Assembly (NCBI RefSeq): GCF_900607235.1
Contig: NZ_LR027849.1
Span: 1,054,001-1,118,000, forward strand
DNA from: Olivibacter jilunii
GTDB taxonomy: Bacteria; Bacteroidota; Bacteroidia; Sphingobacteriales; Sphingobacteriaceae
Length of the DNA stretch: 64,000 nucleotides
Direction of reading: 5' to 3'
Shown here piece by piece: positions 1,633-54,099 of this stretch (positions are counted from its first letter, which is position 1; each line of letters starts with the position of its first letter). Below the pieces are notes generated by a model. The model had not been told where the DNA came from. It saw only the letters and a list, made by a program, of their open reading frames with translations, and did not search any database. A program made the translations under genes and the position numbers.

Positions 1633-1637
1633 AGGAG

Positions 1638-2363: not shown

Positions 2364-2373
2364 ACGAGATCTC

Positions 2374-3111: not shown

Positions 3112-3179
3112 CTTGCCATCCAAGAATCGTATGCGGTATGACGAGCCGTCTTTATATTTTACAGAAATACCCTTAAAAT

Positions 3180-3854: not shown

Positions 3855-3860
3855 GTATTT

Positions 3861-3886
3861 ACAGCATGCTGTTGTTCGATTCAACA
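3861..3886 (+). promoter_or_regulatory. Palindrome ACAGCATGCTGT next to a short hairpin
   Basis: Bases 3861-3872 form a perfect 12-bp palindrome. It is followed at once by a stem-loop in which TTGTT (3873-3877 area) pairs with AACAA across a 6-base loop. It lies between the SRPBCC gene and the alcohol dehydrogenase gene. It may be an operator or a weak terminator. There is no run of T after the hairpin. Confidence 0.3.
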
Positions 3887-3941
3887 ATCTAAGATGATGT
3901 ATAAACACTCGCCGAACAGGTGACACGATAGAATTATAAAT

Positions 3942-5861: not shown

Positions 5862-5962
5862 ATGATGTTTCTGAAATATATACTAAAAACGTACCGAAGG
5901 CCGTACAGTCTGTGAAAACCGGCATGTATATCGCTTTTTATTACATAACATAAACTTGTGAT

Positions 5963-6418: not shown

Positions 6419-6420
6419 AT

Positions 6421-6564
6421 TCATTCAATCGCCATAAACTTAGTACCGTCGGGTACAACGGCAGCGCCGCTCACTTTCATTTTACTTTTCATCATTGGAA
6501 AGTGCACCTTTTCCAACCTCCGTTCTTTCTTCTTAAACAGATAATCACTTAACAAAGGAAGGCA
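6421..6564 (-). pseudogene. Possible 3' remnant of a lost gene (minus strand)
   Basis: A 47-codon open stretch ends in KVSGAAVVPDGTKFMAIE and stop. A Met-Met pair lies 24 codons before the stop (ATG at 6495). The stretch is basic in front (FKKKERRLEK) and has a protein-like ending, which looks like the C-terminal tail of a longer protein whose upstream part is absent. No start with a ribosome site and no extension were found. It could equally be a 24-residue peptide gene or chance. It begins 2 bp after the stop of the convergent membrane protein. Confidence 0.3.
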
Positions 6565-6868
6565 CTATAATCATATCCACAAAACAACTAATATCTAGGC
6601 CTTTAATAGATCGCCACTGTAGGTAGTTTTGGTCGGTGGGAAGTGCTGTTTTTCTACCGGTTATATCAGAAATTAGGACATAGAAAAAATCTTGCCAAAT
6701 ATGCATAAAAAATAATATGAAAAACGAATATCGACATCCATACAGTGGATGCTGTAATAAACACATCTTATCAGCCAATTTTAACCTCGAAGAGTTTCTG
6801 TTCTTTTTTTTACGAAACCAACCCGCTATTTAGGCACAAATCCTGTAACTCTATTATCAACTAATCTT
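6565..6868. other. Noncoding stretch upstream of the stress genes
   Basis: No convincing gene is seen here. A 77-codon minus-strand open frame (6545-6778) has no recognisable domain and an unlikely composition, so I do not call it. The AT-rich segment at 6780-6868 presumably holds the promoter of the gene starting at 6869. I could not identify a clear TAnnTTTG element. Confidence 0.5.
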
Positions 6869-7120
6869 ATGAGAGATCAAAACAGAACAAGTATGGGAAA
6901 AGATAAAAATGGCAGTTTCGTGCCACCAAAAGGACGTCCTTCGGGCACAGGCCGAGAAAGTAGCGGACTACGTGATGCGTTTGCCGTTACTGGGTTAGAT
7001 GAAGACAATGAACTGGCGGAAAAATATACCAGCGGTCCGGATAAGCCGGCAGCAGGTATTACAATTAGGCATCAAAATAGAAATGTCGACAAGGGACGGG
7101 ATAGAGAAGAAGAGCGGTAA
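6869..7120 (+). CDS. Small hydrophilic conserved protein
   Basis: This 83-residue hydrophilic protein contains MGKDKNGSFVPPKGRPSG near its start, an acidic middle with ELAEKYTSGPDKPA, and the ending RHQNRNVDKGRDRE. The pattern of a PPKGRPSG motif followed by a HxNRNVDKG ending is one I associate with a small family in Sphingobacteriaceae and related bacteria. No function is known. It is probably disordered. The Met at 6893 is an equally good start, because the family pattern begins there. It lies 37 bp before the DUF892 gene and is probably cotranscribed with it. Confidence 0.65.
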   Translation: MRDQNRTSMGKDKNGSFVPPKGRPSGTGRESSGLRDAFAVTGLDEDNELAEKYTSGPDKPAAGITIRHQNRNVDKGRDREEER

Positions 7121-7157
7121 ATTAAATAAAAATCGGTGAACATAAAACAGTAAGATT

Positions 7158-7673
7158 ATGGCAAATTCAAAAAAAAACACAGAAGGAATGCCCAATGCGC
7201 ATCTGCATGAATTATTTGTAGACGAATTGCGAGATATTCTAGGAGCCGAAAAGCAACTTTTGAAAGGTTTGAAAAAGATGGCCTCCAAAGCCAATGGTGA
7301 AACCCTAAAAAACGCATTTCAGGAACACCTATCGCAAACAGAAGAACATGTGGAGCGATTAAAAAACGTATTTGATTCCATAGGTCTAACAGCAAGGGGA
7401 AAAAAATGCAAGGCAATGGAAGGGCTGTTGAATGAGGCGGAAGAAATAATGGAAGAATTTGAAAATGGGGAAGTGTTAGATGCTGCTTTAATATCCGCAG
7501 CCCAAAAAGTGGAGCACTATGAAATTGCAAGCTATGGATGTCTGGTAACCTATGCCAAATTGATGGAACATTCGGAAGCGGAGGAATTGCTAGCCACTAC
7601 TCTTAATGAGGAAAAGGAAACAGACGTGAAATTAACGGACATTGCCATGTCTGAAGCCAATGTTGCTCAATAG
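7158..7673 (+). CDS. DUF892 (YciE/YciF) ferritin-like protein
   Basis: This 171-residue all-helical protein matches the YciE/YciF family (DUF892, ferritin-like diiron fold). It has the opening HLHELFVDELRDILGAEKQLLKGLKKMA, then the second helix pair EEHVERLKNVFDSIG, then the metal-type motif KVEHYEIASYGCLVTYAKLM. Carboxylate/His ligands of the ExxH kind are visible (EEHVER and VEHYE). The family is induced by osmotic and oxidative stress in enteric bacteria, but its exact role is unsettled. Its place between small stress-type genes and treZ agrees with a general-stress function. A strong terminator hairpin follows. Confidence 0.93.
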   Translation: MANSKKNTEGMPNAHLHELFVDELRDILGAEKQLLKGLKKMASKANGETLKNAFQEHLSQTEEHVERLKNVFDSIGLTARGKKCKAMEGLLNEAEEIMEEFENGEVLDAALISAAQKVEHYEIASYGCLVTYAKLMEHSEAEELLATTLNEEKETDVKLTDIAMSEANVAQ

Positions 7674-7695
7674 TTCATTAGTTTTATTTAAGTGC

Positions 7696-7726
7696 AAAGC
7701 CCCAGTCAGTTTTAGATTGGGGCTTT
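7696..7726 (+). terminator. Intrinsic terminator after the DUF892 gene
   Basis: AAAGCCCC (7696-7703) pairs perfectly with GGGGCTTT (7719-7726) across a 15-base loop, 22 bp after the DUF892 stop. The sequence after it is T-rich (GATTTATTT). The hairpin covers the upstream TTG at 7725, which argues against that codon being the treZ start. Confidence 0.8.
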
Positions 7727-7745
7727 GATTTATTTCATACCCCGC

Positions 7746-9554
7746 ATGATAGGAGCAATATATAATCGTAATCAAGTAAATTTTAGCGTATGGGCACCCC
7801 TTAAGGAAACAATGGTGCTACACATTGTATCACCTAAGGAGGCGAAATATAACATGAAACCAACTAGCGAGGGCTATTTTTGTTACAAGCTGAAAGATGC
7901 AACCGGTATCATTCGATATTTTTATCAACCTGATGATAATGAAAAGGATTATCCTGACCCGGCCTCACGTTTTCAACCAGAAGGTGTACACGGTCCCTCT
8001 CAGGTAATTGACCATGCGCGGTTTCCATGGGAGGATGCCAACTGGCGCGGCATTGCTTCCCACCAATTACTTTTATATGAGCTACACGTGGGTACCTTTT
8101 CAGATGAAGGGACATTTGAAGGGGTGTTATCGAGGCTTGACGACTTGAAAACCTTAGGCATTACCGCGCTGCAGCTGATGCCTATTTGCCAATTTCCCGG
8201 GTTGCGAAATTGGGGTTACGACGGAGTTTATCCCTTTTCGGTTCAAAATTCTTACGGTGGTCCGATGGGGCTCAAAAAACTGATTAACAAATGTCACGAA
8301 AAGGGGCTAGCTGTTTTCATTGACGTAGTCTATAATCATTTAGGCCCGGAAGGAAACTATCTTGGCGAATATGGCCCGTACTTTACTGATAAGTATATGA
8401 CTCCTTGGGGCCAGGCGATCAATTTAGATGGGGAATGGAGTGACGGTGTCCGTAATTACCTTTTGGCAAATATTGCGGAGTGGTTTGTTCATTACCACGT
8501 GGACGGTTTGCGAGTTGATGCTATCCATGCCATGTTTGATAATGGATCAGTTCCTTTCTGGGAGGTGGCCTGTGCCTATGTAAAGGAGCTTGAACGTGAG
8601 TTGGGGCGCCGATTATATATGATCGCTGAAAGCGATTACAATCATCCCCGGATAATTCAGCAAGGGAGCGGAGGACTTGGTTTTGATGGACAATGGTTAG
8701 ACGATTTCCATCACGCATTATATACGCTGGTCTTTCCGGAGGGGAAAAAATTTTATCAAGATTTCGGAAAGATAGAACAGCTTTCCAAAGCATATAAAGA
8801 GGGCTTTGTACACACCGGTGAGTACGTGGAAGCGAGAAAGAAAAGATTCGGTGCTTCCTCTGCCGGTATACCGGGTAGTAAATTCGTGGTCTTTAATCAA
8901 AATCATGATCAGATAGGAAATAAAGGGCAAGGCGAACGTCTATCAACCAGTTTGGACTTTGAAAGACTCAAAATAACGGCAGGCGCTGTTATTCTATCAC
9001 CCTACATTCCGATGTTGTTTATGGGAGAAGAATATGGTGAAAAAAATCCATTTTCTTATTTTATTAATCACGGTGATCCACAGCTGATAAGAGCGGTAAA
9101 GGATGGTAGAAGAAAGGAATTTGGAACGTTTATGGATAAAGAGGATGTATCAGCACCGGAAGATCCCGACGTATTCGAACGCTCCAAATTAAATTGGGAT
9201 AAGCGAACAATAGGAAAGCACGCAATGATATTGGATTGGTACAAAAAACTGATCAAGCTTCGGTTTTCTGATCCGGTTTTTTCTAACTTTAATAAAAAAG
9301 ATATACAAGTCAATGTGATCGATAGGCTTCTTGTCCTACAACGAGTGAACGAAGGAGGAAGAGATAATACATTATGTCTTTTTAATTTCTCCGAAGACGA
9401 AACTATGTATAAGATACCTATCGGCTTCCCTTATTGGAAGGAACTACTTTTTCATGATCACTCACCGGTTTATTACCAAGGGACTTCGGTGGCTATTACA
9501 CCGTGGGCGGTGTGGATATTAAAGACTCTCGAAGCGCAAGAAGAAGTATATTAA
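7746..9554 (+). CDS. treZ: Malto-oligosyltrehalose trehalohydrolase
   Basis: TreZ cleaves maltooligosyltrehalose to release trehalose, the second step of the TreY/TreZ route from glycogen or starch. The protein has an N-terminal carbohydrate-binding (E-set) domain beginning IGAIYNRNQVNFSVWAPLKE. The GH13 barrel follows with LYELHVGTFS, VFIDVVYNHLGPEGNY, GLRVDAIHAM (nucleophile), MIAESDYNHPR (acid/base) and FNQNHDQIGN. Length (602 residues) is normal. I place the start at ATG 7746, because the in-frame TTG at 7725 lies inside the preceding terminator and adds only seven unlikely residues. A treY partner is not in the window. The damaged 5' neighbour and the trehalose-synthase-like gene at the window edge suggest parallel routes to trehalose. 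Confidence 0.93.
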   Translation: MIGAIYNRNQVNFSVWAPLKETMVLHIVSPKEAKYNMKPTSEGYFCYKLKDATGIIRYFYQPDDNEKDYPDPASRFQPEGVHGPSQVIDHARFPWEDANWRGIASHQLLLYELHVGTFSDEGTFEGVLSRLDDLKTLGITALQLMPICQFPGLRNWGYDGVYPFSVQNSYGGPMGLKKLINKCHEKGLAVFIDVVYNHLGPEGNYLGEYGPYFTDKYMTPWGQAINLDGEWSDGVRNYLLANIAEWFVHYHVDGLRVDAIHAMFDNGSVPFWEVACAYVKELERELGRRLYMIAESDYNHPRIIQQGSGGLGFDGQWLDDFHHALYTLVFPEGKKFYQDFGKIEQLSKAYKEGFVHTGEYVEARKKRFGASSAGIPGSKFVVFNQNHDQIGNKGQGERLSTSLDFERLKITAGAVILSPYIPMLFMGEEYGEKNPFSYFINHGDPQLIRAVKDGRRKEFGTFMDKEDVSAPEDPDVFERSKLNWDKRTIGKHAMILDWYKKLIKLRFSDPVFSNFNKKDIQVNVIDRLLVLQRVNEGGRDNTLCLFNFSEDETMYKIPIGFPYWKELLFHDHSPVYYQGTSVAITPWAVWILKTLEAQEEVY

Positions 9555-9628
9555 ATAGCATTTGCCAATCATCTCCATACGAGTGATTATCGCATTTCTT
9601 CGAATAATATAGGATATGCGATCAATCA

Positions 9629-10222
9629 CTAAGGGTTCTGACGGCCGACAAAGTCATTGATAATCTGTATGCTCATTTTGCTATTTTTTTCGATAGACGT
9701 AATAATCTTTTGTATATCTTCCTCGTTCAATGATTTCAATCTTTCGTTTAGCAAACGGGATAGATTTTTGATGTTGCCCAAAGGCCCACCTAAATCATGC
9801 AATAGAATATGAAGGATGGAGTCTTTTTTATCATTCAGCTCATTCAAATAGTCTATATCTTCCTTTATTGTTGTGATGTCAGTCACATAACCTAAAAATA
9901 GTTCTTTATCTAAACTATTGTCAATACGTGCATATAGAGAAAGGATACATGTTTTCTCGTTAGGGAGTATCGTCCTGAATTCAAAATCGGTGAGCGAATT
10001 TCCCTGACGTAAAAATGGGAGATATTTTTTCAAACGCCGGACATCATCCGGATGAATAATACGAGTGAGTTTATTTATACTCTTATCGCCGGAGCGGATG
10101 CCGAAAAAAGACTCAAATGATGTGTTAGCATAGCAAAAAAGCTTATCTGTTAAACTGTATATGAAATAATAGCGATTGTCTTCCGCAATAAGTGAAAGTA
10201 AAAGTTCCTCAATATTCTTCAT
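9629..10222 (-). CDS. PAS plus histidine-kinase dimerisation domain protein without ATPase domain
   Basis: Residues about 15-118 form a PAS domain (YANTSFESFFGIRSGD, then IIHPDDVRRLKKYL and the ending FLGYVTDITTIKED). It is followed by a linker helix and a HisKA-type dimerisation domain with the H-box LLHDLGGPLGNIK, where His142 would be the phospho-acceptor. The protein then stops at residue 197 (DFVGRQNP). The N, G1 and G2 boxes of an HATPase domain are absent, and I see none in any frame of the short gap downstream. It may be phosphorylated in trans, act as a decoy or scaffold, or be a truncated remnant of a full kinase. A lone receiver domain lies at 15496. Confidence 0.8.
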   Translation of the reverse strand: MKNIEELLLSLIAEDNRYYFIYSLTDKLFCYANTSFESFFGIRSGDKSINKLTRIIHPDDVRRLKKYLPFLRQGNSLTDFEFRTILPNEKTCILSLYARIDNSLDKELFLGYVTDITTIKEDIDYLNELNDKKDSILHILLHDLGGPLGNIKNLSRLLNERLKSLNEEDIQKIITSIEKNSKMSIQIINDFVGRQNP

Positions 10223-10412
10223 AAAGAGTGTATTTGGAAGTTAATCGTTTGTTACCCCAATATTAAATCGGTTAAATTAACAAAAAAGAATTGCAATAGC
10301 TACAAAGTTTGTGAACATTTGGCCCCTATGTACTTCATAGTAAATCAATGACAGGCTACAATCTAACTGTTGTATAAAATTCCGTTTAATATAAACGACT
10401 GAAACAACGAGC

Positions 10413-10444
10413 TTGGTTTTTGATTACATAAATTCGTAGTTTTG
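10413..10444 (+). promoter_or_regulatory. Bacteroidota-type promoter
   Basis: TTG at 10413-10415 and TAGTTTTG at 10437-10444 match the -33 TTTG / -7 TAnnTTTG pattern of Bacteroidota with a 21-bp spacer. The gene at 10491 would have a short leader of about 40 bases. This is a pattern match only. Confidence 0.5.
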
Positions 10445-10490
10445 CATTAAATTCTCTCAGTGTACATTAGTAATAATTGCGGATACATTA

Positions 10491-10910
10491 TTGGAAACAC
10501 CCTTTCAAACAGCGAAACTGGGCAACAGACCGATTATCTTCCTTAAAAAAAGAATTGAAACCTTCGATTTTAAGGTCTATACATTGTTTCTTTTTAAAAT
10601 TGATCCCATTGTAGCAAAGGAGGAAATTATACAATATTGCCGAAGCTATAATGCAGATAAACTCTCTAATACGACACTTTACGCATTTATTTTTTTTGAC
10701 AACGAGAAATATGCTGATTTTCCTAAACGAGCTGCTACCTACATTTATAATACGCTGGAGGATAGCCTAGCTGTCCAACATATTAAAGCTGTATACATCT
10801 CCAATGTTATTAACGGTTTTAGCAAGCTTTTTTATTATCCAACAAGTTATTTCTTTGGTCACGCGGAAGAACACTATTATCTGGATGGTTTAACAAAGAA
10901 TATAAAGTAG
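10491..10910 (+). CDS. Hypothetical protein
   Basis: This 139-residue protein has an alpha/beta feel (DFKVYTLFLFKIDP, LYAFIFFDNEKYAD and IKAVYISNVINGFSK) and many aromatic residues. No signal peptide, membrane segment or recognisable domain is present. The only in-frame start with good placement is TTG at 10491, 46 bases downstream of a plausible promoter. It stands alone between the PAS protein on the opposite strand and the EamA transporter. I do not recognise it. Confidence 0.6.
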   Translation: METPFQTAKLGNRPIIFLKKRIETFDFKVYTLFLFKIDPIVAKEEIIQYCRSYNADKLSNTTLYAFIFFDNEKYADFPKRAATYIYNTLEDSLAVQHIKAVYISNVINGFSKLFYYPTSYFFGHAEEHYYLDGLTKNIK

Positions 10911-11007
10911 GCATACAATAACTGTATCTCTCAAATTTACCGGAAATGTAACCCTGATCACTCGATTATTTTATCGAGATTTGACTTAGGTTAAAATCCG
11001 CTTAAAT

Positions 11008-11943
11008 ATGGCTAACGATTTACTTAAAGCTTATTTTGCCCTCGCTGTTGTTTGTATAGTATGGGGCACTACTTATTTTGCTATGCGCATTGGTGTGAAT
11101 ACCATTCCGCCTTTTTTATTTTCCGGATTTAGGCAGGTTGTGGCAGGAGGAATACTATTGCTTTTCCTAAAGATAACCGGCAAGTTGAACGCGCTTACCA
11201 GGACTAATTTTATACGTCAAGCAATCCCCGGAATACTGATGATTACGCTTGGTAATGGTGTTGTAGGTTGGAGCGAAAAATTTATTCCCAGTGGTTTAGC
11301 TGCATTGATTGTCTCTATCATGCCTGTGTACATCGTTGTCGTTAGTTTTGTAAGCGGGGTAGATCGTAAAATGCCAAATATAGCAATAGTCGCAGGACTA
11401 ATCATGGGGACTTTGGGTATTATACTCATTTTCAACGATAATTTGAGTGATTTGTCTAATCCATCCTATTTTACGGGAATGCTCGTAGCTTTCGGTGCAG
11501 CCTTAGCCTGGGCATCAGGAAGTGTGTACACAAAATATAAACCATCAAAGGCTGATCCACTTGTTAACGCCGCTATGCAAATGCTCATCGGGGGCATAGT
11601 GCTGCTACTAATGAGCCTTTTTTTAGACGACTTTAAATTAATTCAGCCAGTTTCCAGTGATAGCTTTTGGGCTTTAGTGTATCTGATTGTGATAGGATCG
11701 CTTCTATCATATCCCTGCTTTATTTATGCTTTGGATAAATTACCAGTGGGATTAGCTTCCATCTACGCTTACATCAACCCGCTTATTGCCTTAATGCTTG
11801 GCTTCTTTTTACTAAACGAAAAATTGACGACGATGTCGCTGCTAGCGTTATTTACGACTTTAACCGGTGTCTATTTTATCAACAGAGGCTACCGTCAGAA
11901 AAATCACACGCTTCGTTTGACAAGCTCAAGAAGAGAACCGTAA
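11008..11943 (+). CDS. EamA/DMT family transporter
   Basis: This 311-residue inner-membrane protein has about ten hydrophobic segments arranged as two EamA repeats. The first repeat starts at VCIVWGTTYFAMRIGVNTIPP, a hallmark of drug/metabolite exporters. The second starts at GAALAWASGSVYTKY. The C-terminus has the typical ASIYAYINPLIALMLGFFLLNEKLT. The substrate cannot be read from sequence; relatives export amino acids, nucleosides or drugs. It lies directly upstream of the graspetide locus in the same direction, but is separated by 120 bp containing a palindrome, so I treat it as a separate unit. A role in exporting the peptide product is unlikely for this family. Confidence 0.9.
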   Translation: MANDLLKAYFALAVVCIVWGTTYFAMRIGVNTIPPFLFSGFRQVVAGGILLLFLKITGKLNALTRTNFIRQAIPGILMITLGNGVVGWSEKFIPSGLAALIVSIMPVYIVVVSFVSGVDRKMPNIAIVAGLIMGTLGIILIFNDNLSDLSNPSYFTGMLVAFGAALAWASGSVYTKYKPSKADPLVNAAMQMLIGGIVLLLMSLFLDDFKLIQPVSSDSFWALVYLIVIGSLLSYPCFIYALDKLPVGLASIYAYINPLIALMLGFFLLNEKLTTMSLLALFTTLTGVYFINRGYRQKNHTLRLTSSRREP

Positions 11944-12010
11944 TTATTGGTTATTTTAAATAATTTAAACATATATGTAGCATAATTTCATCAAGATTCG
12001 TCTACTAAGT

Positions 12011-12026
12011 AGTAATGCGTATTACT
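12011..12026 (+). promoter_or_regulatory. Inverted repeat upstream of the graspetide precursor
   Basis: AGTAAT (12011-12016) and ATTACT (12021-12026) are perfect inverted 6-mers around GCGT, ending 37 bp before the precursor start codon. The position fits an operator overlapping the promoter or the early leader. A near -7 element (TACTTTTTG, one base too long) overlaps its right half. Confidence 0.45.
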
Positions 12027-12063
12027 TTTTGTTTATTATTTATTTATTTAAAAACTAACAGTT

Positions 12064-12240
12064 ATGGAAACTAAAAATCAAATGAAGAAACCCTTCTTTG
12101 CCAGATTCTTAGAAGGACAAACAGCTCAAAATGCTAAAAATCAGGATGGTAATCAGCAATCTCCAAAGTCCGAGCTTCATCAATCGCCGGATTGGAATGT
12201 TACGTTGAAGTTCCCTTCGGACAGTGACGAGGGTCTGTAA
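12064..12240 (+). CDS. Microviridin-type graspetide precursor peptide
   Basis: This 58-codon gene is too short for routine ORF calling. Its leader carries KKPFFARFLEGQ (residues 8-19), the alpha-helical recognition motif PFFARFL of microviridin precursors. A Gln/Asn-rich linker follows. Near the C-terminus lies TLKFPSDSDE (residues 47-56), which matches the microviridin core pattern TxKxPSDx(D/E)(D/E). By family knowledge Thr47-Asp53 and Ser52-Asp55 would be closed by esters and Lys49-Glu56 by an amide, giving a tricyclic depsipeptide, typically a serine-protease inhibitor. The tail after the core is only Gly-Leu. Two ATP-grasp genes follow directly. No cleavage site or protease gene is obvious. 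Confidence 0.93.
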   Translation: METKNQMKKPFFARFLEGQTAQNAKNQDGNQQSPKSELHQSPDWNVTLKFPSDSDEGL

Positions 12241-12301
12241 GGTATCTGAATCTTAGCATCTACAAGGGGTTGGCGCCGACCTCTTGTCCATTTTGATTGA
12301 C

Positions 12302-13276
12302 ATGATCTTATGTATTACCCATTCCAGTGACTTTTATACTATCGACATCGTTCAAAACGCCTTAAATCGTATGGGTGTACCATCAATCCGGTTAAATGTT
12401 GATGAATTTGCGATAAATTATAAAATTCATTACGATTTTACGGATAACGGACGGCAACTTTACCGATTAAATATAAACGGGTTAACCATTGAATCTTCTC
12501 AAATCACGGCCGTTTGGTATCGCAAGTTATGGGACTTAACAGTTCCCGGCGATTTGGATCTAACTTATCGATCTGTGTTCGTGAAAGAGTACCGTACCTA
12601 TTTACAGTTATTCTTTGATAGTTTGAAAGATTTATATTGGATAAATGATATGCAAGTAGACCATGCTGTTGGGGGCAACAAAATATATCAACTGAAAATT
12701 GCGAATAGCGTCGGTTTACGGGTTCCCAAAACCACTATTAGTAATGAAGCGGCAACTATCCGAGCGTTCTATAAATCCTGCGTAAACGGAACGATCATGA
12801 AGCTTCATGGTGCTTTAGAGAAAAGTATGCATGCCAAATCGTTTCTTCCAACCATAAAGCTGGCCGATGAAGACTTGAAGAACCTGGAAGAGTTATCCTA
12901 CTGCCCTATGATCTTTCAAGAGTATATAGACAAGTTATATGAATTACGGATAATTTATGTTGATGGTGAGTTTTTCACCGGGAAAATTCAGCATAAAGAG
13001 ATGCAGACTGACTGGAGAATCACTCGGGGGACCTCTCCATCTTGGGAGCGATATCCACTGCCAAATGAAATAAAGCATAAATTACGAAGGATGATGCAAC
13101 GCTTAAATCTGGGCTTCGGAGCGATTGATATGATAAGGAATAGGGAAGGTGCTTATATCTTCCTTGAAGTTAATCCGCAGGGTGAATGGGGTATGCTCCA
13201 AAAAGAACTAAATTATAAGATCGGAGAAACACTAGCAGAAAAACTAATTGAGCACGCAAGGAAAAATGAACAATAA
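12302..13276 (+). CDS. MvdC/MvdD-type ATP-grasp peptide ligase, first copy
   Basis: This ATP-grasp ligase starts with MILCITHSSDFYTIDIVQNALN, has the conserved VWYRK of the pre-ATP-grasp domain, and ends with the metal/ATP motif FLEVNPQGEWGM. Enzymes of this family activate Asp/Glu side chains of a leader-bound precursor as acyl phosphates and close ester or amide rings. It lies 61 bp after the precursor gene. I use ATG 12302 rather than the upstream TTG 12284, because family members begin right at this strand. Whether this copy makes the esters or the amide cannot be decided by eye. Its partner overlaps its last 11 bases, so the two are translationally coupled. Confidence 0.9.
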   Translation: MILCITHSSDFYTIDIVQNALNRMGVPSIRLNVDEFAINYKIHYDFTDNGRQLYRLNINGLTIESSQITAVWYRKLWDLTVPGDLDLTYRSVFVKEYRTYLQLFFDSLKDLYWINDMQVDHAVGGNKIYQLKIANSVGLRVPKTTISNEAATIRAFYKSCVNGTIMKLHGALEKSMHAKSFLPTIKLADEDLKNLEELSYCPMIFQEYIDKLYELRIIYVDGEFFTGKIQHKEMQTDWRITRGTSPSWERYPLPNEIKHKLRRMMQRLNLGFGAIDMIRNREGAYIFLEVNPQGEWGMLQKELNYKIGETLAEKLIEHARKNEQ

Positions 13277-14261
13277 GAAAGTATTAATTATTACCCACGA
13301 AGGTGATAACGCCTGTGTAGCAAACGTTACAGATCATATAGAACAGATTGGTGGTAACGTAATACGATTTGATGTAGATAAGTATCCAACAACGGCCTCC
13401 TTAACAAGTTCATACAACAAACAGGGGTGGTCTGTTGAGCTAGAAGGAACAATGGCTCAATTGTTGGACGACAATCTTACCGGTGTTTGGTATCGCAGAA
13501 GCCATTACATTGGTAGAAACCTTAAAAACCTAATCCATGATGCTTATTTACCCGCGACATTGGGAGAGGTTAAACGGACGCTCTATGGAATGGTAGAATC
13601 GTTGCCCTGCTTTCAGATGGAACGTTACAGCACCTATCGACGATTAGATAGCAAAGAAGAACAATTGAAAATAGCACATAAATACGGTATGCAGATTCCT
13701 GCAACCTGCATCAGTAATTCGCCACAGAAGATAAAAGAATTTATGCAGCAAGTTGGGGGTGAGTTTGTTGCCAAAATGCAAAGCTCTTTTGCAATTGTTA
13801 AGGATAATATAGAACAAGTTGTATTTACAACTCTTTTAGATCCTGAGGATATTGAACAATTGGAAGACATTCAATATTGTCCTATGATCTTCCAAGAAAA
13901 GATAGAAAAAAAACTAGAATTGCGTGTGACCATTGTAGGCTACGAGTTTTTCGCCTTTAGCATCGATTCCCAAAAGCAGGAAGACACAAAGATTGATTGG
14001 CGTAAAGATGGACTTAGCTTGATAAACGAATGGAAACCTTTTCAGCTGCCGGAGAGAATAAAGAAAAGCCTGACACTTTTGATGGATTATTATCAATTGA
14101 ACTATGGGGCCATTGATCTCATTGTAACTCCCGATGATGAATATTATTTTTTAGAAATTAATCCGGCAGGTGAATATTTTTGGCTGGACCAAATGTGCGG
14201 GCATGCCATTTCACAACAGATCGCCAAGGTACTTATAGGAGCCGCATTAAGAAGAGAGTAA
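13266..14261 (+). CDS. MvdC/MvdD-type ATP-grasp peptide ligase, second copy
   Basis: This is the second ATP-grasp ligase of the locus, about 331 residues from ATG 13266, which has a purine-rich AAGGAAAA just upstream. It opens with KKVLIITHEGDNACVANV, has FDVDKYPTT and VWYRRSHYIG as in microviridin ligases, and ends with the ATP-binding FLEINPAGEYFWLDQ. It resembles the canonical microviridin enzymes at these motifs somewhat more than the first copy does. Two ligases with one precursor is the standard microviridin arrangement, one for the two esters and one for the amide. The assignment between copies is inference. The start codon lies inside the end of the first ligase gene. Confidence 0.9.
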   Translation: MNNKKVLIITHEGDNACVANVTDHIEQIGGNVIRFDVDKYPTTASLTSSYNKQGWSVELEGTMAQLLDDNLTGVWYRRSHYIGRNLKNLIHDAYLPATLGEVKRTLYGMVESLPCFQMERYSTYRRLDSKEEQLKIAHKYGMQIPATCISNSPQKIKEFMQQVGGEFVAKMQSSFAIVKDNIEQVVFTTLLDPEDIEQLEDIQYCPMIFQEKIEKKLELRVTIVGYEFFAFSIDSQKQEDTKIDWRKDGLSLINEWKPFQLPERIKKSLTLLMDYYQLNYGAIDLIVTPDDEYYFLEINPAGEYFWLDQMCGHAISQQIAKVLIGAALRRE

Positions 14262-14380
14262 CAACATGCAAAAACGATCCGGTGATTTTTTTGTATTAAT
14301 TGTATATTCTATTAGTCTCTATCAACAGCATAAACCAAGTGTTAGGGGCATGAATAAGAAAGTTAATATTAATAAGTGAA

Positions 14381-15043
14381 ATGACAGCATCTTTTTTGCC
14401 TATAGACCTCAATACATGGCCGCGAAAGCCTTATTTTGATTACTTTTATTATCAATTGAAGACCAAGTACAATGTCAATCATCACTTGGAAATAACCGCG
14501 TTGCTCAATTCCATTAAAAAAAGACAGCTGAAATTTTATCCTACGTTTCTCTATCTTATAACAAAAACGGTGAATCAAAACGAAGCGTTTAGAATGGCTT
14601 TCGATGAAAATGGCATTTTGGGACTTTGGAACTTTTTAGTGCCATCATATACGATTTTTCACAAGGACGATAAAACATTTTCGGATCTATGGAGCCCTTA
14701 TTACACGGGGTTTAATGACTTTTATACCACCATTTTGCACGACATGGAACAATACCGAGATATCAAAGGTATTCGTGTGAAGGCCGGACGTCCTGCTAAC
14801 TTCTGTCCCATTTCTGCACTTCCATGGTTAAGCTTTACAAGTATTAGCCAAGACACTTACAGTGACTCGGATCTACTTGTTCCTATCATTAGATTTGGTA
14901 AGTACTATCAAAATATGGAAAAAACCCTACTGCCATTTTCTATATATGTACATCATGCAGTGGCCGACGGTTATCATACATCCAAATTTATTAATGAGCT
15001 GCAGGACTTATGCCGGGAAATTGATGATTGGATAGATTCGTAG
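14381..15043 (+). CDS. Chloramphenicol acetyltransferase-like (type A CAT) enzyme
   Basis: This 220-residue protein matches classical trimeric CAT over its whole length. It has the start LNTWPRKPYFDYF, FYPTFLYLITKTVNQNEAFRM, YTIFHKDDKTFSDLW, the LPWLSFTSIS serine region (residues 148-156) and the active-site block YVHHAVADGYHTSKFINEL with the catalytic His at 191/192. The usual Cys of HHAVCDG is Ala here. It uses acetyl-CoA; the classical acceptor is chloramphenicol. It lies 119 bp after the ligases, where cyanobacterial microviridin loci carry a GNAT-type N-acetyltransferase, so a role in acetylating the peptide is possible but unproven. Antibiotic resistance is the conservative reading. ATG start at 14381. 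Confidence 0.88.
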   Translation: MTASFLPIDLNTWPRKPYFDYFYYQLKTKYNVNHHLEITALLNSIKKRQLKFYPTFLYLITKTVNQNEAFRMAFDENGILGLWNFLVPSYTIFHKDDKTFSDLWSPYYTGFNDFYTTILHDMEQYRDIKGIRVKAGRPANFCPISALPWLSFTSISQDTYSDSDLLVPIIRFGKYYQNMEKTLLPFSIYVHHAVADGYHTSKFINELQDLCREIDDWIDS

Positions 15044-15045
15044 AT

Positions 15046-15273
15046 GCTAAGGGATCGAAAAGTCGCAAAACTGATCATTATTGGAAACATCTTATCAAAG
15101 AAGGGGGCACCGAAGTCGCTTGTGGCTGGCTAACAGATAAATTTGGAATAAGTTGGCAGATTATTCCAAAGAAACTGAGTGCATTAGTAGGAAATCCGGA
15201 AAAGCCCCAAGGGTGATGGCTGTTTTGATGCAAATGAAAAAAGTTGATCATTGCTGATTTGGAAAATGCATAA
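15046..15273 (+). pseudogene. Decayed VOC/PhnB-like gene fragment
   Basis: The sequence carries the C-terminal third of a PhnB-type VOC protein (the family often named 3-demethylubiquinone-9 3-methyltransferase). DHYWKHL, then ACGWLTDKFGISWQIIPKKLSALV, sit in one frame. RVMAVLMQMKKVD follows in the next frame from about 15211, and IADLENA plus stop at 15271-15273 comes after one further single-base shift near 15249. Two frameshifts and a missing N-terminal two-thirds mark it as dead. The fragment begins immediately behind the CAT-like gene, which suggests that this junction is a recombination point. The in-frame ATG at 15028 is inside the CAT gene and is not a credible start. Confidence 0.75.
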
Positions 15274-15495
15274 CTGTGTTTCTGCTTTTCTATCTTCTTA
15301 TGTCCACCGTATTAAACTCGTCGGGTGCCCTCTTTTTTGAGCTTATATGCGGGACCTGCTTTTACAATGTTTACAGTGACATATAAAGTATACAGATATC
15401 TACTGAATATACACATAACGGCATGCCTTAAACGGTTGATTTTCATTGTGGCCTGAGAATTGCTTATATATGCTGATCGTAAAAAGTAGACACGA

Positions 15496-15858
15496 ATGAA
15501 GAAGTTGATTTATATTCTTGAAGATGAGTCGGATATAAGGGATATATTATCTATTTTCTTATCTGAATATGCAGAGGTAAAAACTTTTGGGAACATTAAA
15601 AGCTTTAAAGAAGCCATGCTGGCTGTTATTCCTCATCTATTTTTACTGGATATAAATCTCCCTGATGGAAATGGATTGGAACTTGCAACTGATATTTCTA
15701 AAAATCAATTGGCTAAGAACAAACCAATAGTTATTATGTCTGCCCACGCAAAAGGTGATGATTTGCAAAAAAGAAAAGAGATTAGTGCTTTTATTTCAAA
15801 ACCTTTTGACTTAAGTCAGATGGAGCAAAAAGTAGTCGAATTATTAGAAGCATCTTAG
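15496..15858 (+). CDS. Single-domain response regulator (receiver only)
   Basis: This 120-residue CheY-like receiver has no output domain. The acidic pocket is Glu9/Asp10/Glu11, the phospho-acceptor is Asp52 in LLDINLPDGNG, the switch residue is Ser82 in IVIMSAHA, and the conserved Lys is Lys102 in ISKPFD. It can therefore be phosphorylated and probably acts through protein contacts or as part of a phosphorelay. No kinase gene is adjacent. The nearest histidine-bearing protein is the PAS/dimerisation-domain protein 5.3 kb away. A bidirectional terminator follows. ATG start at 15496. Confidence 0.92.
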   Translation: MKKLIYILEDESDIRDILSIFLSEYAEVKTFGNIKSFKEAMLAVIPHLFLLDINLPDGNGLELATDISKNQLAKNKPIVIMSAHAKGDDLQKRKEISAFISKPFDLSQMEQKVVELLEAS

Positions 15859-15877
15859 TGATTTGGATAAAAGAAAA

Positions 15878-15905
15878 GACGGGCAATATGAAGTCACTGC
15901 CCGCC
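15878..15905. terminator. Bidirectional terminator between receiver gene and SDR operon
   Basis: GACGGGCA (15878-15885) pairs with TGCCCGCC (15898-15905), with one G-T wobble and a 12-base loop. It lies between the convergent receiver gene and the end of the minus-strand SDR gene, so it can serve both. Confidence 0.7.
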
Positions 15906-15917
15906 TAAAGGCGCGAC

Positions 15918-16646
15918 CTATGGCCAGGATGTCTCAGTCATGGGAAGTACCATAATTTCCGGGATCACAGTTTCTTTTGGTAGTGATAGCACATACCGAA
16001 CAGTATCGGCTACATTTTCAGGATCTTGTAGCAAATTAACATCGATGTCGGGGAAACGCTCCAGTAGAAAGGGGGTTTTCATTCCTCCGGCAATTACGGC
16101 AGTGACCTTTATACCCTCTTTACGCCCTTCCACGTGTAGGGCATGACTAAAGCCCAGCAATCCCCATTTACTCGCGTGATAGGGAGAGGCGTTAGCCCAA
16201 GCTCGTTTGCTCGCTGTCGACACGATATTCACAATATGTCCTTGTCCATTCTTTTTCAAATATGGGAAAGCGCTTTTTGAAACAATAAAGGGGCCACGAA
16301 GATTGACACTCATTACTTGGTCCCATTCATTGAGGCTTAATTCTTCCACTGATTTAGTATAATCTACTCCTGCATTGTTTATTATCACATCAAGTCGGCC
16401 AAAATGGTCTACTACTTGTTTTAGTACGTTTATCACACTGGTTTCATCACTTACGTCCATCACATATGATTGTGCATTGCATCCGGCAGCTGATATTTCC
16501 GCTGACGTATGTACCAAATCATTTTCTCTTACATCTGTTAATGCAATGCTGGCACCGTCTCTTGAAAGCCTCTTACAAATTGCTGCTCCTAGACCACGAC
16601 CAGCTCCGGTAACTAAAACTACTTTATCTTGCAGTGAATTTTCCAT
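15918..16646 (-). CDS. SDR family oxidoreductase
   Basis: This 242-residue classical short-chain dehydrogenase/reductase has the cofactor loop TGAGRGLGAAI near residue 13, NNAGVDYT near residue 90, and the catalytic set Ser (IVSTASKRA) with YHASKWG (Tyr and Lys four residues apart). The substrate is unknown and the family accepts sugars, steroids and many alcohols. It is the last gene of a minus-strand operon with PEBP, GT9 and GT4 genes. It begins 11 bp after the GT4 stop, which points to a part in the same carbohydrate or envelope pathway. The C-terminus is slightly short but complete. Confidence 0.9.
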   Translation of the reverse strand: MENSLQDKVVLVTGAGRGLGAAICKRLSRDGASIALTDVRENDLVHTSAEISAAGCNAQSYVMDVSDETSVINVLKQVVDHFGRLDVIINNAGVDYTKSVEELSLNEWDQVMSVNLRGPFIVSKSAFPYLKKNGQGHIVNIVSTASKRAWANASPYHASKWGLLGFSHALHVEGRKEGIKVTAVIAGGMKTPFLLERFPDIDVNLLQDPENVADTVRYVLSLPKETVIPEIMVLPMTETSWP

Positions 16647-16657
16647 AATATATATTG

Positions 16658-17656
16658 TTAATAATTTGTCTGATTAGATTGCCTCAATTGCATTGATTTT
16701 TCGATTACTAGTTCGAACGCGTCCAGCCAGTCGCGAATGAATCGATCCATTCCAAAGTTTTGTATTGCTGTCTCCCTAGCATTATCCCCCAATTTTTTGG
16801 CGTGAAGTGGATCATCGAGCAACAACTGCATTTTATTTATCAAATATGACACATCCGTATGAATGTACCCAGACTTTCCATTGTCTACGGTCATGGCCAT
16901 CTCCGTAGTCGCTAAGCCTATAATTGGTAAGCCTACCATCATCGACTCACAGACTGCCAAACCTAAACTTGTGTAACGTATCGGATTAAAGAAAAAACGA
17001 TACTTCGAAATGAAGGATGGTAGCTCAGGAGGCGCTATCTCTCCCAATCCACCGGCCACTTCCGATTCCATACCGATTAGATCTAAAGGAACATACTTTT
17101 GCACTTGCTTAAAAATATCGTAACCTAATCGCCTCCCTCGCTTCGCTATGCCATTGATTACTACAACTCCTTTTTCAAGCACTCCGGTATAATTGACGTC
17201 TTTAGGGATCAAAACTCCATGTTGGATCACTCTAGTAGGTGTACGATTATTGTCCCACATCAGATTGTTAAAATGGGTTACATGTATTAATAGGACCTCA
17301 GGATCATCTACTATATGCCGCGTATCGGTAGGTACCTCTCTCGGTGGATCATGTTCTAAATAAATCTTAGGTAGAACTCTTTGACGTTCATCTAAAATTT
17401 CATACTGATCTTCGAGGTAGTTCTTTCTCGACTGGAACAAAATGCAATCAAAATCCATGTCCTTTAGTTCAGAAACCGGTACCTCATATACATTGTCTCC
17501 CCATTTAAAAGTTCCGGAGCGACCGCCGTATCCTTCCGGTCTATCAGACATTACCGGTAGATAGAACTGGCACGGTACCTGAGAAAGGTAGTAAAGATAA
17601 CTACCATGTATATGCCAGGTTAAAATTCTTAATGGCTTTTGCGATATTATTTGCAT
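16658..17656 (-). CDS. Glycosyltransferase, GT4-like (group 1)
   Basis: This 332-residue GT-B glycosyltransferase starts KPLRILTWHIHGSYLYYLSQV. The acceptor-side domain has IYLEHDPPREVPTDTRH. The C-terminal nucleotide-sugar domain carries FFNPIRYTSLGLAVCESMMVGLPIIGLATTEMA, the ExxxxG-like region of GT4 enzymes. It is the third gene of the minus operon, behind a heptosyltransferase-like GT9 and ahead of an SDR, so it probably adds a sugar to a surface glycan or a lipopolysaccharide-type structure. Donor and acceptor are not readable. It is cytoplasmic, with no signal peptide. ATG start at 17656. Confidence 0.88.
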   Translation of the reverse strand: MQIISQKPLRILTWHIHGSYLYYLSQVPCQFYLPVMSDRPEGYGGRSGTFKWGDNVYEVPVSELKDMDFDCILFQSRKNYLEDQYEILDERQRVLPKIYLEHDPPREVPTDTRHIVDDPEVLLIHVTHFNNLMWDNNRTPTRVIQHGVLIPKDVNYTGVLEKGVVVINGIAKRGRRLGYDIFKQVQKYVPLDLIGMESEVAGGLGEIAPPELPSFISKYRFFFNPIRYTSLGLAVCESMMVGLPIIGLATTEMAMTVDNGKSGYIHTDVSYLINKMQLLLDDPLHAKKLGDNARETAIQNFGMDRFIRDWLDAFELVIEKSMQLRQSNQTNY

Positions 17657-17692
17657 AACTGTCTATTTATATTTCTTCGTACATTCTTGCTT

Positions 17693-18784
17693 CTATTTAT
17701 CATTTAATAAAATTTTCACTTCCCTTAAAACTTCACTTACTTCAATGCCTCTTACGAACGAAAAAAGGTGTTCACAATTAAGATCCCGAGGTTCAAAAGG
17801 GTAAGGTTCATTCGGAACGACACCGCACCTAGGGCATTGCATATCCCACGATATAACAAATCGGTGCTTTTTCGTAAATAGCGGTCCCCATTTAGCGAAG
17901 TTGGGTGCCCAATATATACCTACCGTTTTAGCGCCAGCAGCCCTTGCCAAATGAAGCGGTCCTGTATCGTTAGAAACGACCAATTCACTTTTGGCAAAAA
18001 GTGCTCCGAGCGTTCCCAGGGATACGTTGCGGCAGGCGTAAAAAGCCTGATTTTGCATAGTTGCAATGATTTCCTGAAGGTATTGTTCATCCTCATTGTC
18101 GCCAGTGAATAGGACAGTAACCCCGCTTTTTACAAGCTCGTCCGCCAATTGTGCAAATTTATCCGGAAGCCATCGCCTTCGAAGATCCTTAGCACCGGGA
18201 TGCACAATGATGTAAGGCTGACTAATAACCAAATTTTGCAAAATCTCCTTTGCATTGGCATACTCAGCAGGAAACAGGGTAATTTCGGGCTCTAAAGTAT
18301 AGAGCAATGCCCCCACTAAATCTATCAGCTCTAAATAGCGCATTACCTCGTGCTGATAATGGACAAAAGGAATGCAGTAATCTGTATCTATGGCCTCCCT
18401 GCATGTATGCCCTATTGTCACGCGGGCGTTTAATTTGCTTATAAAGGGATTGGACGCTATACCTCTGCCTTGAAAATGAATAGCTAGATCGAACTTCTCT
18501 TCTTGCATACGTTGAAAAAAATGGTCTATTTCTGCTTGATCTGCCTCTTTTCCTTCTTCATCCCGAATACCTTTATACAGGGGAACCACAACAACACGAT
18601 CGATTACCGTTCGCTTTTTGACAAGAAATTCGGCGTGCCAAGGACTTCCCAGCAGTACAATCTCAGCCTCTTCATAAGCGTGTTTAAGAGCATGAATGGC
18701 TGGCAGGGTAACAAGAAAATCTCCAAGAGCGTTGGCTCTTAGAACGGCTATTTTTTTTACCTCTTTCTCTTTAATTTTATTCAT
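17693..18784 (-). CDS. Glycosyltransferase family 9 (heptosyltransferase-like)
   Basis: This 363-residue GT9 protein has the N-terminal KKIAVLRANALGDFLVTLPAIHALK, the classic start of ADP-heptose:LPS heptosyltransferases. It also has YIIVHPGAKDLRRRWLPDKFAQLAD in the middle and ELVVSNDTGPLHLARAAGAKTVGIYW in the donor-binding domain. The C-terminus has a Cys-containing WDMQCPRCGV, which is unusual for the family core but common in GT9 proteins of this operon type. It presumably transfers heptose or a related sugar in envelope glycan assembly. Its start overlaps the preceding PEBP stop by 8 bp, so the two are translationally coupled. Confidence 0.9.
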   Translation of the reverse strand: MNKIKEKEVKKIAVLRANALGDFLVTLPAIHALKHAYEEAEIVLLGSPWHAEFLVKKRTVIDRVVVVPLYKGIRDEEGKEADQAEIDHFFQRMQEEKFDLAIHFQGRGIASNPFISKLNARVTIGHTCREAIDTDYCIPFVHYQHEVMRYLELIDLVGALLYTLEPEITLFPAEYANAKEILQNLVISQPYIIVHPGAKDLRRRWLPDKFAQLADELVKSGVTVLFTGDNEDEQYLQEIIATMQNQAFYACRNVSLGTLGALFAKSELVVSNDTGPLHLARAAGAKTVGIYWAPNFAKWGPLFTKKHRFVISWDMQCPRCGVVPNEPYPFEPRDLNCEHLFSFVRGIEVSEVLREVKILLNDK

Positions 18785-19271
18785 CTGTTGTAGCGTCGGT
18801 TACTTCATCCGATAAGTCATTTATATATGTGCCACTATCACAAATCCCTACTAAATCAGCAAAGTCAATAATATGTTCTTTCATCAGCTCTTTGATTGTG
18901 GCAGGTTCGGTGGCTGCCGATAATTCTAAGCGTGTATCCAGTGCATATAATCTGAATACATAATGATGAATCCCTTTGAAGTATTTTGGGCAGGGGCCTT
19001 CATAGCCAAACGTATGATTATTGCACAAACCTTCAATTCCACCGGCAGGTACCTGCCCTTCTTCAATTAACGTAGTGGCAGGAGGAATATTAAAAACATG
19101 CCAATGCGTCCATGGGACTGGAGAAGCGTCTATATCTTCGATCAACAATACTAAGCTTTCGGCATCAGAAGGAACACCTTCAAATACGAACGATGGGCTA
19201 ACATTTGAGCCTAAACATGTAAATCTTTTCGGAATCTCGGTACCTGGTTCAAAAATGCTTCGTATTTTCAT
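18777..19271 (-). CDS. YbhB/YbcL family PEBP (Raf kinase inhibitor-like) protein
   Basis: This 164-residue phosphatidylethanolamine-binding-protein homologue has the family motifs GSNVSPSFVFEGVPSDAESLVLLIEDIDASPVP (shown here as parts: DIDASPVP and WTHWHVFNIPP). It also has the ligand-site GYEGPCPKYFKGIHHYVFRLYALD. It is cytoplasmic because no signal peptide precedes the domain. Bacterial members have no agreed role. As first gene of the minus-strand glycosyltransferase operon and coupled to the GT9 gene by an 8-bp overlap, it is a fixed partner of this gene set in several Bacteroidota. ATG start at 19271. Confidence 0.92.
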   Translation of the reverse strand: MKIRSIFEPGTEIPKRFTCLGSNVSPSFVFEGVPSDAESLVLLIEDIDASPVPWTHWHVFNIPPATTLIEEGQVPAGGIEGLCNNHTFGYEGPCPKYFKGIHHYVFRLYALDTRLELSAATEPATIKELMKEHIIDFADLVGICDSGTYINDLSDEVTDATTDE

Positions 19272-19530
19272 CTGTTTTTTTTTTCTTCGTCAAACTATTC
19301 ATGCATCGTAAAGCGCAAAATCTGCCACGAATACAACCTCGCTATAATCATTTTGATTATCGAAAATTCCGTATCTTAATGATTGCCAGAACCGGACAGA
19401 CAAGCACAAACTCCTATCCAAAAAAGGAAAAGCTGTGAAGTAACTGCATCTAAAAAAGTCGTAAATAAGCGAAGAGAAGTGCTTTAGGTATAAAATTCAA
19501 CGTAATTTCTTTTTCAATATCAGCACAACG

Positions 19531-19704
19531 TCAAGGAAAAATTAGAAAAGGAGAAAGCAGTTTATACAAAGAAGTGAACAACGGAGAACCTTTTTTAGGA
19601 CAGTAATAAAACGTTGCCACTCCTTGATTAATCTTCATGGCTACGAAGAAGGCCACATCTACGCTCTTTTTCTCATACTGTTTGTGTAAAAGATGTATAA
19701 TCAT
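19531..19704 (-). CDS. Possible 57-residue hypothetical protein
   Basis: A minus-strand frame runs from ATG 19704 to TGA 19531. It encodes a small protein with FFVAMKINQGVATFYYCPKKG in the middle (reported here in part: NQGVATFYYCPKKG) and a hydrophobic end. The residue use looks protein-like and the frame fills most of an otherwise empty 479-bp interval between the PEBP operon and the gene at 19751. No family is recognised and no ribosome site stands out. It could be chance. Confidence 0.35.
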   Translation of the reverse strand: MIIHLLHKQYEKKSVDVAFFVAMKINQGVATFYYCPKKGSPLFTSLYKLLSPFLIFP

Positions 19705-19750
19705 ATTGTTTCATTTTAATTTAATTTTATATCGCTAAAACAAACTTATT

Positions 19751-20035
19751 ATGGAGAATTTTAAAGCTTTATCAGCCTTCCCTGATCATTTGCAAAAGTA
19801 CTTGCTTGAGCATCCCGAGGAATTGCCTACTGAAGTCAACATGACAAATTTTAAAGTGAAGCCCTTTCAAAATGCATGGACCGATATCCGGTTAAGTGCA
19901 GATTATGAATATACACGTTACATGGATGTCGTTTTTATTGATGGTGAAAAATACCCTAACAAATTACACAGTTATCTGGTTACCTACTCGAGCTCTAAAA
20001 ATATTATTAATCTGAAGAGAATTATACTTTCTTAG
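19751..20035 (+). CDS. Small hypothetical protein
   Basis: This 94-residue soluble protein starts MENFKALSAFPDHLQKYLLEHPEELP and continues with mixed strands (DIRLSADYEYTRYMDVVFIDGEKYP and SYLVTYSSSKNIINLKRI). There is no signal peptide, membrane segment or known motif. The start ATG is preceded by an AT-rich leader. It is a single gene, followed by a structured 213-bp intergenic region that belongs to the amino-acid permease. I do not recognise it. Confidence 0.55.
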   Translation: MENFKALSAFPDHLQKYLLEHPEELPTEVNMTNFKVKPFQNAWTDIRLSADYEYTRYMDVVFIDGEKYPNKLHSYLVTYSSSKNIINLKRIILS

Positions 20036-20071
20036 TCCGACACTTATCTTAAGTTATTATCTTGCTGACAC

Positions 20072-20093
20072 TTAATTGGTTTAAACCAATTAA
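20072..20093. promoter_or_regulatory. Perfect 22-bp palindrome upstream of the permease gene
   Basis: The half-site TTAATTGGTTT (20072-20082) is followed directly by its exact reverse complement (20083-20093), with no spacer. A 22-bp perfect palindrome is far beyond chance for one short region. It may be an operator for a dimeric regulator or the stem of a terminator for the gene ending at 20035, which lies 36 bp upstream. There is no T-run after it. Confidence 0.6.
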
Positions 20094-20135
20094 CGGTAAC
20101 CATGGCGACCTTCCATTGAATTGCCCACATAAAGC

Positions 20136-20175
20136 ATCGGCAGTAACCCATATGCAACACGGCGTTACTGCTGAT
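20136..20175 (+). promoter_or_regulatory. Inverted repeat in the permease leader region
   Basis: ATCGGCAGTAAC (20136-20147) and GTTACTGCTGAT (20164-20175) are inverted copies with a single mismatch and a 16-base loop. The arms hold the 8-bp exact repeat GCAGTAAC/GTTACTGC. It lies 38 bp upstream of a TACCTTTG -7 element, so it is more likely an operator than an RNA leader. Confidence 0.45.
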
Positions 20176-20212
20176 AATTTCAAAATAATCACAACAAAAC
20201 GCATATATCTTT

Positions 20213-20220
20213 TACCTTTG
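20213..20220 (+). promoter_or_regulatory. -7 promoter element for the amino-acid permease
   Basis: TACCTTTG exactly matches the Bacteroidota -7 consensus TAnnTTTG, 29 bp before the TTG start of the permease. No clear -33 TTTG is present at the expected distance, which suits an activated promoter. Confidence 0.5.
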
Positions 20221-20248
20221 CTTTTTACTAAGTAAAAACTAATAGATT

Positions 20249-46288: not shown

Positions 46289-46293
46289 TTGTT

Positions 46294-49803: not shown

Positions 49804-49813
49804 GTAAGATTGA

Positions 49814-51121: not shown

Positions 51122-51141
51122 AATGTTAAATTGATTGTTGA

Positions 51142-54088: not shown

Positions 54089-54099
54089 ACACCTCTGAT

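Follow-up and report, generated by a model that had tools for sequence, protein, structure and literature searches.

Results

A putative microviridin-type cassette and its precursor

The window analyzed here, a 64,000-nucleotide stretch of contig NZ_LR027849.1 of Olivibacter jilunii, carries a putative microviridin-type graspetide cassette that consists of a precursor gene followed by two ATP-grasp ligase genes. The precursor open reading frame (ORF; 12064-12240, +) encodes the 58-residue peptide METKNQMKKPFFARFLEGQTAQNAKNQDGNQQSPKSELHQSPDWNVTLKFPSDSDEGL, in which the leader recognition motif PFFARFL (residues 10-16; 12091-12111, +) is followed by EGQ and the core TLKFPSDSDE occupies residues 47-56 (12202-12231, +). 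Both motifs had been pointed out in the initial annotation, which was made from the sequence alone, and the search against graspetide families that it proposed bore this out. The precursor scored 56.7 bits (E=3.1e-15) with NF033738, the microviridin/marinostatin precursor model, and 40 bits (E=4.7e-10) with PF12559, above the curated cut-offs of 26 and 21, respectively. A profile search of the contigs of the 6.7-Mb genome (6,704,054 bases, 21 contigs) found NF033738 in a single place, which is this precursor, and none of 14 control genomes had a match to the family.

The core fits the pattern TxKxPSD plus two acids, and TLKFPSDSDE is identical in two Olivibacter congeners, G002 and G004. The peptide has one leader, a single C-terminal core and no double glycine (GG) between them, as described for class I microviridin precursors, whereas the double glycine before the core and the linked C39 exporter of class III are both lacking at the locus. 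We therefore refer to it as class-I-like; GG is absent from all three Olivibacter precursors (window, G002 and G004).

Precursors from related loci were collected with the leader pattern P[FYL][FYL]A..L and a core pattern, so that precursors outside these patterns are unseen. The 179 obtained comprise 174 from the Chryseobacterium group, 2 from Chitinophaga and 3 from Olivibacter, that of the window included. All of them contain PFFAxxLExQ, with PFFAKFLEGQ in G002 and G004 and PFFASFLEKQ as the commonest form in the Chryseobacterium group; since the collecting pattern already required P[FYL][FYL]A..L and the core, the independent evidence is limited to the exact residues and the ExQ part. Within this pattern-collected set the leader motif is thus conserved among homologues, the point on which the initial annotation had allowed its reading to fail. 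Asp occupies the second ester position in 179/179. Lys and the last acid of the core occur together in 174 precursors and Arg without the last acid in the other five, with no mixed case among the 179. Such joint retention or loss is expected if the Lys and the acid are joined by an amide bond. In five loci of the Chryseobacterium group (L003, L016, L018, L019 and L021) one precursor each ends in TxRYPSDSD[AS]; these peptides would give an ester-only, marinostatin-like product beside the tricyclic ones of the same locus.

Two ATP-grasp ligases

The two ligase genes share an 11-base overlap, in agreement with the initial annotation. Ligase 1 (12302-13276, +) is of the MvdC/MdnB type and predicted to form the lactam, and ligase 2 (13266-14261, +) is of the MvdD/MdnC/CdnC type and predicted to form the lactones. 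The start of ligase 1 was set at the ATG at 12302, not at the mechanical TTG at 12284, because both congener ligases open with MILC[IL]TH. In profile searches, ligase 1 reached 375.6 bits with the MvdC model TIGR04185 versus 214.9 with the MvdD model, and ligase 2 reached 398.8 bits with the MvdD model TIGR04184 versus 273.1 with the MvdC model. Both passed PF21068, the MvdD pre-ATP-grasp domain (110.5 and 105.9 bits, respectively). When solved structures were compared, ligase 1 was closest to AMdnB (7m4s, 242 bits) and MdnB (5ig8, 237), with MdnC at 149, and ligase 2 to CdnC (7mgv, 342) and MdnC (5ig9, 256), with MdnB at 187. With PMC5934393 and PMC8939145, we take 5ig8 to be MdnB, 5ig9 to be MdnC and CdnC to be the chryseoviridin ligase. 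Excerpts of PMC7823629 assign amide formation to MdnB/MvdC and ester formation to MdnC/MvdD and describe mdnB followed by mdnC as a normally strict order; the order precursor-MvdC-MvdD in the window matches it.

A scan of named genomes yielded 88 stretches encoding a ligase 1 relative, of which the best 80 were kept: 2 from Chitinophaga and 78 from the Chryseobacterium group, the latter including one metagenome-assembled genome labelled Weeksellaceae. At least one precursor and both ligases are present in each of these 80 loci, and both ligases were matched in all 82 other loci compared with the window. A ligase tree of 53 rows, built from the ligases of 24 of the 80 loci and the three Olivibacter cassettes, splits into an MvdC-type and an MvdD-type side, the sole exception being a fused protein. 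It stems from L008 (from 6001, Chryseobacterium sp. ERMR1:04), where both ligases lie in one 651-amino-acid frame that is either a natural fusion or a sequencing slip.

Distribution and selection

The three-gene cassette was found in two of the four searched Olivibacter congeners (G001 to G004), namely G002 and G004, in other neighbourhoods than in the window. Searching with ligase 1 gave close copies (58%) in these two, only distant ATP-grasps in G003 and no relative in G001, and the precursor family is absent from both G001 and G003. It occurs in 3 of 301 genomes of the same taxonomic family, all three of them Olivibacter, and in 8 of 395 genomes drawn from the phylum, that of the window included.

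Codon comparison of the window with G004 and G002 gave seven and six synonymous changes, respectively, in the core (VTLKFPSDSDE, n=11) and no nonsynonymous change in either comparison. In the leader (PFFARFLEGQ, n=10) one and six synonymous changes were counted, with one nonsynonymous change (R to K) each. For the precursor and both ligases, nonsynonymous divergence (pN) was 0.14-0.29 versus a synonymous divergence (pS) of 0.73-0.88, with synonymous sites saturated in five of six comparisons, and all three frames are open. The core is under selection against amino-acid change, and ligase 1 is under purifying selection.

A stem-loop between the precursor and ligase 1

An 11-bp stem-loop, ACAAGGGGTTG-GCGC-CGACCTCTTGT, lies at 12262-12287 (+), 14 nt before the ATG of ligase 1, and is a candidate partial terminator or processing hairpin. 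By folding energy alone it is weak (z -1.65; 13/200 shuffles were as good), and the terminator scan lists it, yet found only 2 sites versus a shuffle mean of 1.8. The promoter scan gave 7 sites versus a shuffle mean of 11.6. All 82 distinct precursor-ligase spacers (from 83 loci, 78 of the Chryseobacterium group) contain an unbroken stem of 8 bp or more, versus 458 of 1640 shuffles, and across the 83 loci it ends 13-24 nt before the ligase ATG. Spacers between consecutive precursors have such a stem in only 3 of 92 cases; these spacers are shorter (median 41 versus 82 nt), and the stem appears in only 60/1840 of their shuffles. Stems of at least 8 bp also occur in 70 of 116 other co-directional gaps (50-110 nt) of the 80 kept loci, while stems of at least 10 bp are found in 80 of the 83 precursor-ligase spacers versus 47 of these 116 gaps. 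As the folding energy is weak and stems are frequent in other gaps, the case for the element is made by its constancy and its place.

Ten consensus pairs were compared in 62 distinct elements of the Chryseobacterium group. Five are invariant and three show only G-U variation. Another alternates between A-U (35) and G-C (24) through changes on both sides, and the last is A-U in 41, G-U in 16, G-C in 3 and unpaired in 2. Stem sequences differ among the three genera examined. Close to the end of the stem, four consecutive T occur in 77 of the 78 Chryseobacterium-group spacers, in both Chitinophaga spacers and in the window; G002 and G004 lack them. We would guess that the element serves Chryseobacterium as a partial terminator and Olivibacter as a terminator or mRNA-end hairpin. 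Literature searches combining graspetide or lanthipeptide with terminator returned no description of such a hairpin among the 12 of 1,916 and the 12 of 17 matches listed, respectively; in excerpts of PMC13097080, the one 'terminator' is a species name.

Chromosomal neighbourhood

The cassette is flanked by a gene for an EamA-family (DMT) transporter (11008-11943, +; PF00892, 143.8 bits) and by one for a 220-amino-acid protein of the type A chloramphenicol-acetyltransferase (CAT) family (14381-15043, +; PF00302, 217.9 bits; NF000491, 242.9 bits, below the cut-off of 270). The latter falls inside the annotated span of 12011-15043, although the initial annotation did not mention it. Both are neighbours that are probably not part of the system, as neither gene has a match in any of the 82 other cassette loci; on this ground the transporter was rejected as a dedicated exporter. 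The arrangement that the window has in common with the G002 and G004 loci consists of the precursor and the ligases only. The remaining matches to the window are generic regulators and a dehydrogenase, and when the G004 and G002 stretches are compared with each other, all of their 15 longest matches fall within the cassette. In G002 (L116), the ORF list reads as transposase-like genes on either side of the cassette (7243-8058 and 14235-17135).

G003 has the same chromosomal neighbourhood as the window without the cassette: nine genes match window positions 1351-10222 on one side and seven match 15496-21697 on the other. The intervening 10223-15495, which holds a 139-amino-acid ORF, the EamA gene, the cassette and the CAT-family gene, is replaced in G003 by about 1.6 kb with a response-regulator-like gene. 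The window yielded eight direct-repeat families, mostly at chance level, as candidate element boundaries. One 24-nt direct repeat (88% alike; 10486-10509 and 15076-15099) bounds the segment in which the window departs from G003, and each copy is preceded by a second short likeness. The right copy of the 24-nt repeat lies in a gene fragment and the left copy has no family match; the repeat is possibly a trace of the entry of the segment, or a chance likeness. Close by, a PAS/HisKA-like sensor protein (9629-10222, -) has 197 amino acids versus 342 in G003, and the match covers only its first 195 residues, so that the C-terminal part seems to be missing from the window copy through loss. A 62-amino-acid frame (15028-15216, +) that matches only the end of PF06983 (80-116 of 116; 48.7 bits) reads as the remnant of a PF06983 gene between the CAT-family gene and the response regulator.

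The G+C content of the cassette (0.394) is that of the window (0.393), and the ligases share about 57% and 60% identity with those of the congeners. AnmK (PF03702), one ordinary gene and hence a thin yardstick, shares 58% with G004 and 51% with G002. A recent foreign origin is therefore unsupported, and an old cassette that relocates or is repeatedly lost fits better than a fresh arrival. It may have been swapped recently into the neighbourhood of the window from within the genus. Further downstream, at 44849-63066, the ORF list contains a putative nitrate/nitrite assimilation gene run with a sensor kinase and a response regulator.

Candidates for export, leader cleavage and tailoring

As stated in the initial annotation, no C39-peptidase ABC exporter adjoins the cassette. 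Matches to C39 occur at two other places in the genome, in frames of 732 and 751 amino acids, one on contig C1 and one at 732 kb of contig C2, where the cassette is located at 1066 kb. The accompanying statement that cyanobacterial loci have such an exporter was right in part, since excerpts of PMC7823629 report that some MdnE transporters lack the C39 domain and class I clusters are described in parts of PMC13039773 as having no leader peptidases. The latter source also describes the M1 peptidase NosP, which is encoded at a distance of 0.8 Mb from its locus and cuts a class I leader beside LEEQ and at two other sites; the window leader has LEGQ at this place. M1 peptidases were considered as leader proteases acting in trans and set aside as uninformative, with five matches in the genome and the family present in 8 of 14 controls. 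No member of the GNAT family (MdnD/MvdB) was found among the nine window proteins scanned around the locus.

Discussion

In O. jilunii, a precursor with conserved leader and core is followed by one ligase of each microviridin type, and family models, relatives of solved structure, leader and core conservation in congeners and gene order agree on the microviridin-type locus proposed initially. We consider it highly probable that this is a stand-alone graspetide cassette that works as follows. By comparison with characterized relatives, the leader helix PFFARFL would dock on both ligases. Ligase 2 would first use ATP to form two side-chain esters, T47-D53 and S52-D55, and ligase 1 would then close the K49-E56 amide. 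Because Asp stands at the second ester position in all 179 precursors, the second ester would be Ser-Asp, as in marinostatin. The tricyclic core, from which three waters would be lost, is guessed to be separated from the leader by a protease whose gene lies elsewhere, and the stem-loop may let the precursor exceed the enzymes in amount. The calculated [M+H]+ of the full-length precursor, initiator Met included, is 6622.179 in linear form and 6568.147 after loss of three waters; for residues 45-58 less three waters it is 1467.711. The freed core would be a serine-protease inhibitor with Leu48 at the specificity position. According to passages of PMC7823629, characterized relatives inhibit serine proteases, and selectivity is steered by position 5, the residue after the ester Thr; microviridin B, Ac-FGTTLKYPSDWEEY, is an elastase inhibitor and has Leu at this position like the window core. 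From Leu48, elastase, chymotrypsin or subtilisin would be expected as targets in preference to trypsin.

Several observations weigh against this reading. At the second ester the core has Asp in place of the Glu of cyanobacterial microviridins such as microviridin B, and the S52-D55 bond was assigned by analogy to marinostatin and from the Bacteroidota set. Both ligases stay under the NCBIfam equivalog cut-offs (375.6 versus 425 for TIGR04185 and 398.8 versus 475 for TIGR04184). The tree program warned of long branches among the ligases, and the Olivibacter rows are not resolved as a single group on either side, and therefore no transfer history was drawn. The five precursors that lost Lys and the last acid all belong to the Chryseobacterium group and, being related genes, may represent only one to three events. 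Finally, no gene for a leader protease or an exporter is linked to the cassette.

The strongest of the alternatives is a bicyclic, marinostatin-like product with two esters only, ligase 1 being weak or inactive on this core. With its PSDSDE ending and an Asp for the second ester, the core is similar to marinostatin, and the score of ligase 1 below its equivalog cut-off points in the same direction. Nevertheless, the lactam Lys and the last Glu are retained in the window, G002 and G004 together with an MvdC-type ligase under purifying selection, and precursors that lose one of the two residues lose both, which makes this product improbable. As an addition to the tricyclic product, the CAT-family protein might cap the peptide in place of the GNAT acetyltransferase MdnD/MvdB. 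Its gene lies on the same strand 119 bases downstream of ligase 2, matches PF00302, and microviridins are described in excerpts of PMC7823629 as often N-acetylated. However, only distant copies (29% and 27%) occur in G002 and G004, far from their cassettes, and its best solved relatives are chloramphenicol acetyltransferases. With the gene missing from the 82 other loci, we rejected it as a tailoring enzyme for want of linkage and hold the capping role to be very unlikely. A decaying or silent cassette without product would suit the unstable neighbourhood, with its shortened sensor kinase and gene fragment, and the absence of the precursor family from G001 and G003, but is hardly to be expected of three open genes with the low pN relative to pS and a core that changed at synonymous sites only.

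Among known systems, the cassette is close to class I microviridins (mdnABC of Microcystis, mvd of Planktothrix, and Nostoc). It shares with them the single C-terminal core TxKxPSD plus two acids, the PFFARFL leader, the order precursor-MdnB-MdnC and the missing GG. It differs from them in the Asp of the second ester, in lacking an adjoining GNAT (MdnD) or ABC transporter (MdnE), and in ligases of only moderate similarity. With the chryseoviridin system of Chryseobacterium (CdnA/CdnB/CdnC) it has in common the order precursor-ligase-ligase and the PSDxD[DE] ending, and CdnC is the closest solved relative of ligase 2. In contrast to the window, precursors of the Chryseobacterium group are longer, number more than one in most loci and have GG in 174/174, and 8 of the 78 loci, within the stretches compared, match the C39-ABC proteins of the window genome over about 700 residues. 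Marinostatin shares the PSDSDE ester pattern. It also has the PFFARFL leader according to passages of PMC7823629, but is without the lactam in the excerpts of PMC13039773, while the window has Lys, the last Glu and an MvdC-type ligase. Precursors of the Chryseobacterium group further contain extra TxxxxD units that the window precursor does not have (PMC8939145, in part). The two Chitinophaga loci (L001 and L002) resemble the window in their single precursor without GG (0/2) and in ligases about 50% and 54-55% identical, and differ in the core TQKYPSDGDE with another selectivity residue and in a longer C-terminal tail, EWWLL. Parts of PMC13039773 assign the chitinoviridins of another Chitinophaga to class III. 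There, class III precursors (GG, often with C39 exporters) are described as occurring predominantly in Bacteroidetes, and classes I and II as particularly common in cyanobacteria, which makes the class-I-like precursor of the window less ordinary.

Microviridin-type loci of Bacteroidota are already in print (PMC8939145, PMC8151938, PMC5934393 and PMC13039773, each consulted as excerpts), and the Olivibacter cassette adds to this family. No paper naming both Olivibacter and microviridin was found in one open-licence full-text library. We see an even balance for and against the broader view that Bacteroidota loci share a stem-loop control that fixes the ratio of precursor to enzymes, with the window's locus belonging to a minimal, transporter-free, class-I-like lineage that changes its chromosomal place within the genus. 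For the family, the finding adds a compact three-gene cassette for a predicted protease inhibitor, from a genus for which the search of that one library gave no microviridin paper. Its class-I-like precursor, with neither GG nor a linked C39 exporter, makes it a convenient test of the acting leader protease, and likewise of whether the stem-loop sets the precursor excess.

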